From assembly GCA_016213405.1 (NCBI GenBank), contig JACRAM010000125.1:1-64000 (forward strand): a stretch of DNA of 64,000 nt. The letters run 5' to 3'. A program made the position numbers and the translations under genes. The notes beneath the pieces were generated by a model, which worked only from the letters and a program-made list of their open reading frames with translations, was not told the origin of the DNA and did no database searches. This DNA comes from Bacteroidota bacterium. GTDB lineage: Bacteria; Bacteroidota; Bacteroidia; Palsa-948. Shown in pieces: positions 3,659-11,399 of this stretch. Position 1 is the first letter of the stretch; every line of letters starts with the position of its first letter.

Positions 3659-3666
3659 TACTTTTG
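3659..3666 (+). promoter_or_regulatory. Bacteroidota -7 promoter box TACTTTTG
   Basis: An exact TAnnTTTG match 18 bp upstream of ATG 3685. It overlaps an upstream in-frame TTG at 3664, which argues that 3685, not 3664, is the start of the serine hydrolase. Confidence 0.55.
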
Positions 3667-3684
3667 AACCTCAAAATATTATCT

Positions 3685-5337
3685 ATGAAAAAACTTTTTT
3701 TCAGAGCCCATCCTAAATCCTTCCCTAAGGGAAGGACTTTGTATATATTACTTTTACTTTTCTCCCTTCCCTTCGGGAAGGGCTGGGGATGGGCTCTTGC
3801 TCAACCCACCTTCGTCAAAGATAGTTTAGATAAATACGTTGAGCGCGAAATGAAACGTTGGAATGTTCCCGGTTCGGCAGTCGCAATTGTGAAAGACGGA
3901 AAAGTGGTGGTGATGAAAGGGTATGGAGTGCGTGCAATTAAAGTCTCCTCCAATGAAGGGGATTTAGGGGAAGCTGTAGATGAGAATACGTTGTTCCAGA
4001 TTGCATCCAACACAAAAGCATTCACTGCTACATCACTTGCTTTGCTTGATGTTCAAAAAAGAATTGCGCTGGATGATAAAGTCACCAAATGGCTTCCCTA
4101 CTTCAAATTGAACGATGAACTTGCATCACGTGAAGTAACTGTAAAAGATTTGCTCTGCCACCGAATCGGCTTCCAGACATTTCAAAGTGATTTACTGAAC
4201 TGGAACTGCAATCTCTCCCGCAAGGAACTCATCACGAACATGCGCAACGTGAAACCGGTTTACAGTTTCCGTTCTCATTACGGTTACTGCAATGCCGCAT
4301 TTCTCACAGCGGGAGAAATAATTCCGGCTGTAACTGATACGAGTTGGGATGATTTTCTGAAATATCATTTCTTCATTCCGCTGAAGATGAATCATACTTC
4401 CACTACCTACAAAACAATTATTGCCGATAACAACGCTAGCAAACCTTACACGATTGTTGACGATAAATTAGTGCTTCTCCCCTATGCCAACGTGGATAAT
4501 CTTGGTCCGGCTGCGAGTATAAATTCCTGCGTGAAGGATTTAGCGAACTGGCTCCTTATGCAATTAGACAGCGGAAAGTTTGAAGGCAAACAAGTTGTTC
4601 CGTTTGAAGCCTTGCAAATGACACGCGCTTCCAACTCAATTGTTTCGGATATGAATCCGAGAATGGGTTCTAACTTTCAGATGTATGGGCTTGGATGGTT
4701 CACGCTTGATTATTACGGAAAAAAAATCATCCGACATGATGGAGGCGCGGATGGTTTCGTTACAACAACTTGTTTTGTTCCTTCTCTGAATCTTGGAATT
4801 GTTGTATTGACCAATACGGATGCAAATGCGTTTTATGCAGCATTGCGCACACAAATTATTGACGCCTTCATGAATCTTCCTTACCAAAATCACAGCGAAC
4901 GAATTTACAAAGCAGTTTCGGCAAATACAAAACTGGATAATGCGGAAATAAATAAAATGCGTGAGGTCGCTGCTAAAAAACCGAAACCTGCAATAAAAAA
5001 TGAAGATTACTCAGGGAAATATAGAAATGAGGTGTATGGAGAAATCGAAATTACCTCATCCCCTAACCCTTCTCCTAAAGGAGAAGAGAGTTTAACTGTT
5101 CACTTTTCACATCATCCATTTCTCACAGGAAAACTGGAGCCGATGGGAGAGAATGATTTTCTCTGCACTTACAGCGTTGCCACTTATGGAATAAAGAAAA
5201 TAAATTTTGTTGCCTCACCCTCTTATCCCTCTCCTCATGGAGAGGGAAGTAAACAGCCAGCACAAAAAGTAAAAAGTGTAATCATTCGCGTAAATGATTT
5301 TGTGGATATGATGGAGTATGAATTCACAAAAGAATAA
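3685..5337 (+). CDS. Serine hydrolase, class C beta-lactamase/esterase family
   Basis: 550 residues from ATG 3685. Exported or membrane-attached penicillin-binding-like hydrolase. The motifs are present: SxxK in IASNTKAF, YxN in HYGYCNAAF, and HDGG in place of KTG. An extra C-terminal domain (DYSGKYRNEVYGEIEI...) is common in Bacteroidota homologues. The substrate is unknown (peptidoglycan peptide, D-amino acid peptide or ester). Oddity: at least four palindromic repeat elements are read in frame. A 95-bp composite provides most of the signal peptide (residues about 7-38), a degenerate copy lies near residues 87-97, and two copies sit in the C-terminal domain (PNPSPKGEE and SYPSPHGEG). It is monocistronic and followed by a hairpin region. 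Confidence 0.88.
   Translation: MKKLFFRAHPKSFPKGRTLYILLLLFSLPFGKGWGWALAQPTFVKDSLDKYVEREMKRWNVPGSAVAIVKDGKVVVMKGYGVRAIKVSSNEGDLGEAVDENTLFQIASNTKAFTATSLALLDVQKRIALDDKVTKWLPYFKLNDELASREVTVKDLLCHRIGFQTFQSDLLNWNCNLSRKELITNMRNVKPVYSFRSHYGYCNAAFLTAGEIIPAVTDTSWDDFLKYHFFIPLKMNHTSTTYKTIIADNNASKPYTIVDDKLVLLPYANVDNLGPAASINSCVKDLANWLLMQLDSGKFEGKQVVPFEALQMTRASNSIVSDMNPRMGSNFQMYGLGWFTLDYYGKKIIRHDGGADGFVTTTCFVPSLNLGIVVLTNTDANAFYAALRTQIIDAFMNLPYQNHSERIYKAVSANTKLDNAEINKMREVAAKKPKPAIKNEDYSGKYRNEVYGEIEITSSPNPSPKGEESLTVHFSHHPFLTGKLEPMGENDFLCTYSVATYGIKKINFVASPSYPSPHGEGSKQPAQKVKSVIIRVNDFVDMMEYEFTKE
3703..3797. repeat. Composite palindromic element (family A pair) inside signal-peptide coding region
   Basis: Two hairpin units face each other: a forward unit with CCTTCCCTAAGGGAAGG and a reverse unit with CCCTTCCCTTCGGGAAGGG. 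The outer ends form a perfect 11-bp inverted repeat, AGAGCCCATCC (3703-3713) and GGATGGGCTCT (3787-3797). The spacer is T-rich and encodes the hydrophobic core LYILLLLFS of the signal peptide. Confidence 0.85.
3943..3974. repeat. Degenerate family A palindromic element, reverse orientation
   Basis: CTCCTCC-AATG-AAGGGG followed by ATTTAGGGGAAGCT, an eroded hairpin plus lead sequence. It encodes the peptide SSNEGDLGEA within the serine hydrolase. The match is weaker than in the other copies. Confidence 0.5.
5054..5087. repeat. Family A palindromic element, forward orientation, in serine hydrolase
   Basis: Lead CCTCATCCCCTAA followed by the hairpin CCTTCTCC-TAAA-GGAGAAG. It is read in frame as the peptide SSPNPSPKGEE in the C-terminal domain. 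Confidence 0.75.
5213..5249. repeat. Family A palindromic element, forward orientation, in serine hydrolase
   Basis: Lead CCTCACCCTCTTA followed by the hairpin CCCTCTCC-TCAT-GGAGAGGG. It is read in frame as the peptide SPSYPSPHGEGS near the C-terminus. Confidence 0.75.
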
Positions 5338-7368: not shown

Positions 7369-7866
7369 TTGAAAAAAATATTTCTTCTCCTGTTTCTTGG
7401 CTTCATTTCCATTCCTTTTTTTGGGCAGGAAGGTCTTTTAATCCGTAATCTCAAAAACGGAAAAGGATGGATGTATGAAAAAAATTCGCGGGTAACATAT
7501 ATTCTCTTTCACGAACAGGAATACACAACAGGAATATTGAATGCTTTGCTTGATTCTTCAGTTGTTTTCGGAAAAGATACGGTGCGGCTGAAAGACATTG
7601 CAGGCATCCGAAAAAAATCTCCGAGTCATAATATCACCCGCATAATAGGTTTGCCGCTTATGCTCATCGGAAGTTTATTTATGGGAGATGGTGTTGCAGG
7701 AATGATTTCAAATCCTGATTCTGATGGAGGAACAAAACTTTTTTTACTGGGAGCAGGAGTTTTTGCGCTTGGCTACATTCCTTATATGTTTGAAATGAAA
7801 GACCTCACTGTCGGATTTAAAGGAGAATGGTCACTTGAAATATGTAAAGGATGTGTGCTGCGTTAA
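7369..7866 (+). CDS. Conserved-looking exported or membrane protein, function unknown
   Basis: 165 residues, TTG start. A signal peptide ([19 protein letters not shown]) is followed by a soluble part with [12 protein letters not shown] (residues 83-94) and two hydrophobic segments (about 103-120 and 127-142). The C-terminus ends in a Cys-containing tail (CKGCVLR). The arrangement resembles Bacteroidota proteins in which a small sensor-like region precedes two membrane helices, but I do not recognise a named family. It is divergent from gcvT and followed by the MITE-like element. Confidence 0.7.
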
Positions 7867-7925
7867 TATCATCGGGCAGGCAAGTTGTTTTTCTTCAACT
7901 ATTTTTCTGACTATAATAAGTAAAT

Positions 7926-8172
7926 AGGTATATGCACATAAGAATCCCAAGCATGACAGGACTTGTCCAAACTCTGCGGCTCTCTGCGAAAATCTCAGCG
8001 TTCTCTGCGGTTAGGTTTCCATCCCTTCGGGAAAAATTTTTAACCGCTGAGTTCACAGAGAAAAATCACGCTGAGAACTTTACCCCGTTGGATTCACCCC
8101 GTAGGTCGGACGACCAACGGGGCAAGGAGAAATACAAGAATTAACTATACGGCAACCTAAGTGCATATACCT
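7926..8172. mobile_element. MITE-like element with perfect 12-bp terminal inverted repeats and 10-bp target duplication
   Basis: The 247-bp element begins AGGTATATGCAC and ends GTGCATATACCT (exact reverse complements). It is flanked by identical ATAAGTAAAT at 7916-7925 and 8173-8182. It has no coding capacity for a transposase. The interior holds nested repeats: CTCTGCG/CGCAGAG-like inverted segments, a CCCGTTGG...CCAACGGGG palindrome and a TCCATCCCTTCGGGA segment. This is the classic structure of a non-autonomous DDE transposon copy. The intergenic stretch 7867-8265 contains nothing else apart from the promoter of the next gene. Confidence 0.85.
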
Positions 8173-8241
8173 ATAAGTAAATTAACATTATGTTGTTTTC
8201 AAATCCCAAATCCTCTTTCTAATTCCTGAATTGAATTGTTC

Positions 8242-8249
8242 TATCTTTG
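8242..8249 (+). promoter_or_regulatory. Bacteroidota -7 promoter box TATCTTTG
   Basis: An exact TAnnTTTG match 16 bp upstream of ATG 8266. Confidence 0.5.
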
Positions 8250-8265
8250 AACACAAATTACATCT

Positions 8266-10146
8266 ATGCTCCTATTCGAACGAACGGTTCCGCGATGGAC
8301 AAAACTTCTGGCTGACCTGCTGATTTGCCTTTTCTCCCTCATCCTCGCTTATTTGCTCCGCTTCAACTTTGCCGCCATCCCGCAGGATGAGATAGATAGG
8401 TTTCCTGTTATTTTTCCTTTTGTCATTGGAATACGTGCGCTTAGTTTCATTCTTGGAAGAACCTATAAGGGAATTTTCCGCTATACCGGCTCACAAGATG
8501 CTCAGCGGATTTTTATTGTAAATGTAATAACAAGTTTTTTTTTCGCTGCGGCAAATGTAGTATCCTACTATTTCATCACAACAACATTTATTGTTCCGTA
8601 TTCTATTGTTGTGATTGAATTTATGTCCTGCACATTCCTGATGATAAGTCTGCGCCTTGCTTATAAATCCATTTACATGGAATGGAAAAATCCGAGCCGC
8701 ACCAAAACAAGTGTCATTATTTTTGGAGCAGGCGAATCAGGTATCATTACAAAAAGAACGCTGGACCGCGATGCGGGAATGAAATACAAAGTGCTTGCTT
8801 TCATTGATGACGATGAAAATAAATTGGGAAGCAAACTAGAAGGAATTACTATTCATCCGTTCAATAAGATGGAAGAACTACTGCAGAACGGAAATGTGGC
8901 GCACATGGTAATTTCCGTTCAGCATATTTCCGCAAAAAGAAAAGAAGCCATCGTGGAAGCATGTTTAAAATATAATACAAAGATCCTGAATGTTCCACCC
9001 GTCAGCAGCTGGATAAACGGAGAACTCAGCTTCAAGCAAATCAAAAAAATTCAGATTGAAGAATTACTGGAACGGAGCCAGATACAACTGGATATGGAAA
9101 ACATAAAAAGACAGACACTTGACAAAGTAATTCTTGTTACAGGTGCAGCCGGCTCCATCGGCAGCGAAATCGTGAAGCAATTGTCAAAATTCAATCCTAG
9201 AAAAATAATTCTGGTTGACATTGCCGAATCTCCGCTCTATGAAATGGAAGTGGAACTCAAAAATATTTTTCATCTCCGCTCTTTTGAAATTGTTATTGCT
9301 GACATTCGAAATAAAGAACGGATGGAAAGTATCTTTTCAAAATATTCTCCGCAAGTTGTTTATCACGCTGCTGCCTATAAGCACGTGCCAATGATGGAAT
9401 ATCATCCCATTGAAGCGGTTCAAACCAATGTGCTCGGTTCAAAAATCATTGCTGACCTTGCAGTAAAACATGGTACTGAAAAATTTGTGATGATTTCTAC
9501 TGATAAAGCTGTGAACCCAACAAACGTGATGGGGGCTTCAAAAAGAATTGCGGAAATGTATGTTCAATCATTAGGCAAAGAATCAAAAACAAGATTTGTC
9601 ACAACAAGATTTGGAAATGTGCTCGGTTCCAACGGCTCAGTGATTCAGTTTTTCCGTCATCAGATTGAAAAAGGCGGACCGATTACCGTAACGCATCCAG
9701 ACATCACAAGATACTTTATGACAATTCCTGAAGCTTGCCAACTAGTTCTCGAAGCTGGTTCCATGGGGAAAGGCGGAGAAATATTTTTGTTTGATATGGG
9801 AGAGTTGGTAAAAATTTCTGACCTGGCAAAAAAAATGGTACAGCTTGCAGGATTAACTTTAGGAAAAGACATTCAGATTATTTACACTGGACTGCGTCCT
9901 GGCGAAAAACTCTTTGAAGAACTTCTTGCCACGAAAGAAAATTCCATTCCAACTCATAATCCTCAGATCATGGCAGGAAAAATGAGAGAGTACGATTACA
10001 AAGGAATTTCTGAAAAAGCAGACGCACTCATTTCTCTTCTACACAATCAAAACAACAAAGAAATTGTCAGAAAGATGAAAGAAATGATTCCTGAATTCAA
10101 AAGTGAGAATTCCGTTTACGAGGAGTTAGACAAAGCTTCAGTTTAA
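8266..10146 (+). CDS. Membrane-bound nucleotide-sugar 4,6-dehydratase (CapD/WbpM/FlaA1-like)
   Basis: 626 residues. The N-terminus has four predicted membrane helices (about residues 14-130). A Rossmann-like region follows (VIIFGAGESGIITKRTL, 147-163), then a full extended short-chain dehydrogenase domain starting LVTGAAGSIGSEIVKQL (about 289-305). Also visible are YHAAAYKHVPMME, FVMISTDKAVNPTNVMGASKR (the SMK-type triad with Met in place of Tyr) and RPGEKLFEELL. Family members convert UDP-GlcNAc to the 4-keto-6-deoxy sugar, the first step towards bacillosamine, QuiNAc or FucNAc in surface glycans. It is followed after 3 bp by the thioesterase and mqnD, so probably cotranscribed. The exact stereochemistry is not predictable. 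Confidence 0.9.
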   Translation: MLLFERTVPRWTKLLADLLICLFSLILAYLLRFNFAAIPQDEIDRFPVIFPFVIGIRALSFILGRTYKGIFRYTGSQDAQRIFIVNVITSFFFAAANVVSYYFITTTFIVPYSIVVIEFMSCTFLMISLRLAYKSIYMEWKNPSRTKTSVIIFGAGESGIITKRTLDRDAGMKYKVLAFIDDDENKLGSKLEGITIHPFNKMEELLQNGNVAHMVISVQHISAKRKEAIVEACLKYNTKILNVPPVSSWINGELSFKQIKKIQIEELLERSQIQLDMENIKRQTLDKVILVTGAAGSIGSEIVKQLSKFNPRKIILVDIAESPLYEMEVELKNIFHLRSFEIVIADIRNKERMESIFSKYSPQVVYHAAAYKHVPMMEYHPIEAVQTNVLGSKIIADLAVKHGTEKFVMISTDKAVNPTNVMGASKRIAEMYVQSLGKESKTRFVTTRFGNVLGSNGSVIQFFRHQIEKGGPITVTHPDITRYFMTIPEACQLVLEAGSMGKGGEIFLFDMGELVKISDLAKKMVQLAGLTLGKDIQIIYTGLRPGEKLFEELLATKENSIPTHNPQIMAGKMREYDYKGISEKADALISLLHNQNNKEIVRKMKEMIPEFKSENSVYEELDKASV

Positions 10147-10149
10147 TTT

Positions 10150-10566
10150 ATGGAAGGATTCAAACACAAAACTCCGATTCAAATCCGCTTCAAGGATGTG
10201 GATATGATGGGACACGTAAACAATGCAAACCATTTCACCTATCTTGAAATTGCGCGAGCGAAATACTTTGACGATGTTGTGGCAGAAGAAGTAAATTGGT
10301 CAAAAGAAGGAATTATACTTGCGAAATTGCTTTGCAACTATAAAATGCCGATTTTATTCAAAGACAAAGTTTTTGTCTATACGAAATGCGCCAAAATAGG
10401 AAATAAAAGTTTTGAGCTCGATTATAAAATCATCAAAGAAGAAAACTCAAAAGAAATTATTCTGGCCGAAGCTTCTTCTGTTCAGGTTTGTTTTGATTAT
10501 GAGAAAAAAGAAAATATCCTGATGCCTGAAAAATGGAGAAAAAAAATTGAAGCTTTTGAGAAATGA
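10150..10566 (+). CDS. Hotdog-fold acyl-CoA thioesterase (4-hydroxybenzoyl-CoA thioesterase/YbgC type)
   Basis: 138 residues. The catalytic region IRFKDVDMMGHVNNANHFTYLE carries the Asp and the HVNN motif of the 4HBT family. It hydrolyses an acyl-CoA thioester; the substrate cannot be inferred. The stop codon overlaps the mqnD start by 4 bp (ATGA), indicating coupling. This is curious because the futalosine route to menaquinone has no known CoA thioester step. Confidence 0.87.
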   Translation: MEGFKHKTPIQIRFKDVDMMGHVNNANHFTYLEIARAKYFDDVVAEEVNWSKEGIILAKLLCNYKMPILFKDKVFVYTKCAKIGNKSFELDYKIIKEENSKEIILAEASSVQVCFDYEKKENILMPEKWRKKIEAFEK

Positions 10567-11399
10567 AAACTCAAATTCTTGCTCTTGGTTTTTCTCCCTG
10601 CCCAAACGACTGTTTCATCTTTGACGCACTCCTTCACAAAAAAATTGATACCGAAGGATTAAAGTTCAAACCATTTATTGAAGATGTCGAAACGCTGAAC
10701 AAAAAAGCTTTCCAAAATAGATTAGATATTTCGAAGCTCAGCTTCTTCACGTTCGCACAAGTTCAAAAAAAATATTCTCTTCTTGATTCGGGCTCGGCTC
10801 TGGGTTTTGGCGTTGGCCCGTTGGTTGTTGCCAAACCCAATTTCAAACTCCCTTCCCTTGGGGAAGGGTTGGGGATGGGCTTCAGAATTGCTATCCCCGG
10901 GAAAAACACAACCGCCAATCTTCTTTTCTCACTCGCCTACCCTCTTCTTAAAAATAAAACCGAAATTCTTTTCTCAGAAATAGAAAATGCTGTACTGAAA
11001 GGAAAGTTTGATTTAGGGCTTATCATTCACGAGAGTCGTTTTACTTACGAGCAACAGGGATTGAAGAAAGTAATTGATCTTGGCGAATGGTGGGAGAAAA
11101 AAACAAAACTTCCTATTCCGCTGGGTGGAATTGCTATCAAAAAAACCTTTTCGAAAGAAATTCAGGATAAAGTCAACCGCGTCATTAGGAGAAGCGTTGA
11201 GTTTGCTTTTGCGAATCCTGATTCAAGTAAATCATTTGTAAAAAAACACGCGCAGGAAATGGATGATGACGTGATTAAACAGCACATTAATCTTTATGTA
11301 AATAAGTTTTCCATCTCACTTGGAAAGAAAGGAAGGGAAGCTGTAAAGATTTTTCTGAAAAAAGCTACTTCTTTAAATGATTCCATCCCTGCGCGGTAA
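10563..11399 (+). CDS. mqnD: 1,4-dihydroxy-6-naphthoate synthase (futalosine pathway)
   Basis: 278 residues. The family signature is at the start (LGFSPCPNDCFIFDALLHKKI), followed by DISKLSFFTFAQV, LDSGSALGFGVGPLVVAK and IAIPGKNTTANLLFSLAYP. MqnD converts cyclic de-hypoxanthinylfutalosine to 1,4-dihydroxy-6-naphthoate for menaquinone, the quinone that feeds the oxidases encoded downstream. Residues about 96-107 (LPSLGEGLGMGF) come from a 36-bp palindromic element inserted just before the conserved RIAIPGKNTTANLL strand, keeping the frame. The 3' end overlaps convergent thiL by 35 bp. Confidence 0.92.
   Translation: MKTQILALGFSPCPNDCFIFDALLHKKIDTEGLKFKPFIEDVETLNKKAFQNRLDISKLSFFTFAQVQKKYSLLDSGSALGFGVGPLVVAKPNFKLPSLGEGLGMGFRIAIPGKNTTANLLFSLAYPLLKNKTEILFSEIENAVLKGKFDLGLIIHESRFTYEQQGLKKVIDLGEWWEKKTKLPIPLGGIAIKKTFSKEIQDKVNRVIRRSVEFAFANPDSSKSFVKKHAQEMDDDVIKQHINLYVNKFSISLGKKGREAVKIFLKKATSLNDSIPAR
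10848..10883. repeat. Family A palindromic element, reverse orientation, in mqnD
   Basis: Hairpin CCCTTCCC-TTG-GGGAAGGG plus lead TTGGGGATGGGCTTC. It is exactly 36 bp, adding 12 codons in frame. Confidence 0.85.

Follow-up and report, generated by a model that had tools for sequence, protein, structure and literature searches.

A low-copy MITE built from nested palindromic repeats in a Bacteroidota genome

A 247-bp element at positions 7926–8172 of the window (the whole 64,000-nucleotide stretch analysed, contig C125 of a 3.65-Mb, 127-contig genome, G000, which groups with six congeners) is very probably a MITE moved by a trans-acting transposase, with a 48-bp palindrome gained later by the window copy; the probability of this reading is put at about 0.92. 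The element is a low-copy MITE confined to this genome among those searched. It represents a new family of a well-known kind, built from nested palindromic repeats, and extends the list of small transposon families in Bacteroidota. Its sole unusual feature, and the part worth following, is a core held in common with elements that have quite different ends.

The element is bounded by perfect 12-bp inverted ends, AGGTATATGCAC on the left (7926–7937, plus strand) and, as read on the plus strand, GTGCATATACCT on the right (8161–8172, minus strand), with 223 bases between them. The direct repeat ATAAGTAAAT lies on both flanks (7916–7925 and 8173–8182) in 100% identical form. The repeat search that returned it also gave longer inverted arms, 7924–7940 and 8158–8174, the innermost 12 bp of which are perfect. 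Perfect 12-bp inverted pairs 60–1500 bp apart number 35 in the window, against 13.5 expected from a first-order chain; only the AGGTATATGCAC/GTGCATATACCT pair has an exact direct repeat of 10 bp on its flanks, and 30 simulated windows with the same dinucleotide make-up contained no inverted pair bounded in this way. The only ORF within the element (7932–8144, 70 aa) matches no Pfam family and is judged spurious, and neither a sigma-70 promoter nor an intrinsic terminator was found inside the element. The sequence-only reading had described a 247-bp MITE with perfect 12-bp ends, a 10-bp target duplication and no coding capacity; all of this is borne out exactly, with 12-bp ends and a 10-bp duplication being confounded with 13 + 8 and 14 + 6.

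A genome-wide search for the exact 12-mer end found five occurrences in 3.65 Mb, all five at the ends of three copies of the element, so that two further copies accompany the one in the window. The second full copy (C71:100534–100736, minus strand) is 203 bp long, has both 12-bp ends perfect and is flanked by a different 10-bp duplication, ATTGTTTTAT; like the 247-bp copy, it has no transposase gene and stays below the length of about 500 bp that goes with a MITE; its neighbours are a DUF167 gene and a 23S-rRNA-intervening-sequence-protein gene. Because this duplication is located in a stretch rich in TTTTATTG, a direct repeat at that site is less remarkable. The third copy (C56:34062–34239) has an intact left end and 178 aligned bases, the right 25 bp being missing. 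Its left flank enters the start of an ORF, whose product MKSIEELNVYQFSMEMGEKIWNIV resembles by eye small helical proteins of the 23S-rRNA-intervening-sequence type; to judge from the sequence, this copy may have interrupted a gene. In the alignment, the window copy differs from the C71 copy at 6 of 198 positions and from the C56 copy at 3 of 152, and the latter two differ at 3 of 178. The three copies are thus 97–98% identical, and the word 'recent', applied earlier to the transposition, holds only in a relative sense, with divergences of 1.7–3.0%. The differing flanks of the full copies argue strongly against an origin by segmental duplication that included the flanks.

The element lies between a hypothetical gene (7369–7866, plus strand, 165 aa, no Pfam match) and a CapD/Polysacc_synt_2-type gene (8266–10146, plus strand, 626 aa). 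In two congeners, G001 and G004, the homologues of these genes are adjacent, with about 105–125 bp between them and no element; identity is about 76% (G004) and 65% (G001) for the upstream gene and 69–76% for the downstream gene. In G006 and G005 a different stretch separates the homologues. The sequence AAAGAAGTTACAAAATTAACATAATGCTGTTTTCAAATC, which in G006 borders the downstream gene, can be aligned to the right flank of the window element and to the target in single copy, the two flanks of the empty site together not being alignable base for base in the relatives. The two points on which the sequence-only reading could be contradicted, the lack of any other copy and conservation of the region in relatives, have therefore both come out in favour of a MITE.

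The consensus of the Bacteroidota −7 box is TAnnTTTG. The octamer TATCTTTG (8242–8249, plus strand) fits it and, in an alignment, is conserved 5′ of the downstream gene in most congeners; it is probably the promoter box of that gene. As some 60 bp separate the insertion from this box further downstream, the promoter of the downstream gene was probably left alone. The intergenic position, together with strong single-strand folding (z = −5.0), could also indicate a conserved regulatory or RNA structure that is not mobile at all. Such an explanation is hardly credible, given that relatives have the same genes without the element, that Rfam holds no match for it, and that the C71 and C56 copies lie beside unrelated genes, the latter apparently inside a gene start; the strong folding is a consequence of the nested inverted repeats.

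The restriction of the MITE to one genome is seen at several scales. Its ends have no match in the six congeners, and about 390 further genomes of the class gave one weak match, a 31-bp stretch in G288, which has an unrelated context and was judged to be chance. Where relatives contain the exact 12-mer, the sequence around it is unrelated. GTDB genomes have neither the exact 19-base end pattern nor the paired-end pattern, the latter is also absent from IMG/VR, and the plasmids searched gave no match.

The left targets of the three copies, ATAAGTAAAT in the window, ATTGTTTTAT in C71 and ATATTGTTAT in C56, all fit the pattern AT-N6-AT. AT is always present on both sides of the element, and 12-bp ends with a 10-bp duplication are therefore inseparable from 13 + 8 or 14 + 6, depending on whether T or AT is counted with the terminal repeat; the 12 + 10 description was adopted as the longest repeat seen. 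In the mechanism proposed, a transposase supplied in trans would recognise the 12–14-bp ends and cut both; the ends would then be joined to an AT-rich AT-N6-AT target that had been cut in staggered fashion, and gap repair would leave the short direct repeat, which is read as 10 bp. The window copy would later have reached 247 bp by gaining the 48-bp CCCCGTTGG palindrome. Movement by a transposase acting in trans is established for MITEs in general; the anatomy of the present element suggests it here, together with DDE chemistry. The sequence-only reading had spoken of DDE-type transposition outright; its hallmarks are present, the DDE type being a deduction from them with no partner transposase found.

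An insertion sequence with the same AGGTATATGCAC ends, which the earlier reading had proposed to look for as the source of the transposase, was not found in the genome among the DDE_Tnp_1, IS1595, ISL3 and IS256 families. Draft assemblies often lose multi-copy elements, and ends in common with an autonomous insertion sequence, though useful for naming the partner, are no requirement for a MITE. The single DDE_Tnp_1 gene, at C45, is IS982-like by our judgement and lacks such ends, and a DDE_Tnp_1 partner of the IS4/IS5/ISAs1 type was accordingly rejected. ISL3- and IS256-type transposases are absent from the genome. Two IS1595-type genes are present. One locus, L137, has no AGGTATATGCAC-type ends; the other, L138 on contig C95, holds a complete IS1595-family element (L138:613–2403) with 24-bp ends TGCACATATCCCTAAGATTATTTT, an 8-bp duplication AAAAATAA and extra ORFs beside the transposase. 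This element resembles the MITE in that its 8-bp duplication is AT-rich and its end, TGCACATA..., is similar to the bases just inside the left end of the MITE; however, its ends start at TGCAC, 7 bases inward of where the MITE ends begin. It was rejected as a partner since its ends differ in register and sequence, an 8-bp duplication being possible for the MITE but confounded with 10 and 6. A genome-wide search for the ends with up to three mismatches gave 255 sites versus 224 for a reversed control, which leaves not much signal apart from the five exact ends, and 18 loci with two-mismatch ends, among the matches listed, included no plausible pair. The genome also has eight Y1 (REP-type) transposase genes, two of which have CCCCGT[T/A]GG-type palindromes no more than about 1.1 kb away (L127:1005–1145 and L128:341–480). 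These palindromes may bear on the inner CCCCGTTGG palindrome, not on the MITE; a REP or REPIN moved by a Y1 transposase was rejected for the element itself, which has terminal inverted repeats and target duplications.

The internal anatomy was read from an alignment of six elements (the window, C71 and C56 copies and elements in C36, C54 and C88). The outermost layer is the AGGTATATGCAC shell. The second, CAGGACTT[A/G]TCCAAA, is a leftover of the left end of a TAGGACTTACGCAAA-ended MITE family and appears in the window as CAGGACTTGTCCAAA (7957–7971, plus strand). The third is a CTCTGCG hairpin core, with four CTC[T/A]GCG units 9–12 bp apart in its left arm (7972–8011, plus strand) and complementary units in its right arm, TAACCGCTGAGTTCACAGAG...GCTGAGAAC (8041–8078, plus strand). 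The loop of the core holds the 21-bp CCCTTCGGG hairpin, in the window the module TAGGTTTCCATCCCTTCGGGA (8012–8032, plus strand), which is present in all three MITE copies and missing from the C36, C54 and C88 elements. The last layer is the 48-bp palindrome CCCCGTTGG...CCAACGGGG (8079–8126, plus strand), found in the window copy only, where it replaces the CGCA of the C71 and C56 copies. The order of the layers can thus be read: core and shell came first and the CCCCGTTGG palindrome later. The claim that the interior had collected other dispersed repeats applies to this palindrome and not to the CTCTGCG core and CCCTTCGGG hairpin, which occur in every one of the three copies and so travel with the element.

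Outside the AGGTATATGCAC shell, the core and its CAGGACTTATCC left edge also occur in the TAGGACTTACGCAAA-ended MITEs C36:5739–5862, C54:54506–54625 and C88:43173–43261, of which the complete C36 and C54 copies have 5-bp duplications, ATTGA and ATAAA. From this it might be argued that the inner CTCTGCG cassette, or an older TAGGACTTACGCAAA element, is the mobile thing and that it is framed by AGGTATATGCAC ends only by accident. This is very unlikely: the C71 and window copies share the whole 203-bp unit and have different duplications exactly at AGG/CCT. A further proposal concerns the origin of the MITE and is a variant of the MITE explanation, not an alternative to it; the 203-bp unit would have arisen from a TAGGACTTACGCAAA MITE by a change of ends, the two families being two branches served perhaps by related enzymes. 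Besides the common core and left edge, the two families have the same TAGG start and both have ACTTA...CGC close to the right end, but their duplications are of 5 bp versus 10, 8 or 6 bp and the similarity of the ends (AGGTATATGCAC versus TAGGACTTACGCA) extends over only a few bases, and such a descent is considered improbable.

CTCTGCG cores are found within still other ends. The element C110:20807–20960 is TGTACGACAA-ended, with a CTCTGCG-type core and no clear target duplication, and another TGTACGACAA-ended element with such a core, at C69:107403, runs off its contig. At C16:44790–45020, GTTACGCA/TGCGTAAC lie near both ends of a unit containing a CCCGTAGG/CAACGGGG palindrome, the CTCTGCG core and the CCCTTCGGG hairpin. 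Near-identical GTTACGCA-type repeats end contigs C120, C63, C42 and C19, several assembly breaks falling in them. The same or a closely similar core, partly with CCCTTCGGG and CCCCGT[T/A]GG hairpins, is thus present inside at least four kinds of element in one genome. It can tentatively be suggested, with the odds somewhat against it, that palindromic cores made up of CTCTGCG units at helical spacing serve as interchangeable passengers in four or more kinds of small element (AGGTATATGCAC, TAGGACTTACGCAAA, TGTACGACAA and GTTACGCA ends). If true, the core would itself be mobile, homing into MITEs, or would aid the spread of any MITE, for example as a protein-binding array, and common repeats like CTCTGCG may spread by riding in several unrelated MITEs. 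A literature search by sequence for the core and GGACTTACGCA returned nothing relevant; its coverage was partial, so this is not proof that they are undescribed. Two contigs, C2 and C32, have near-matches to ATACGGATAAGCAC at their ends, which proved to be part of another MITE-like repeat, ending in TAGGACTTTCGCAAA. This repeat (L111:1–140, the end of L112 and the end of L113) has a CACGGAT/ATCCGTG core, a second kind of core between similar ends.

Three known systems are comparable. Bacterial MITEs such as MITEAba12 of Acinetobacter are short and non-coding, have terminal inverted repeats and a target duplication and are moved in trans (PMC6382973); the window MITE shares these traits, but has three copies and no partner insertion sequence was found for it. 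BrickBuilt of Porphyromonas gingivalis, with 19 copies and a 23-nt tandem minisatellite inside (PMC4596501), is likewise a Bacteroidota MITE with an interior of repeated DNA, whereas the window MITE contains nested inverted repeats and has three copies. TIMEs are miniature elements derived from Tn3 that give rise to mosaic elements; their ends are of the Tn3 type and 38 bp long, and their duplications measure 5 or 6 bp (PMC4133298); like the window MITE they are non-autonomous and take up other modules, but the 12–14-bp ends of the latter are unlike those of Tn3.

Elsewhere in the window (3664–5337 and 10563–11399), predicted proteins contain LPFGKGWGWA, SPSPKGEES, YPSPHGEGS and LPSLGEGLGMGF stretches, which look like in-frame translated copies of a dispersed DNA repeat.
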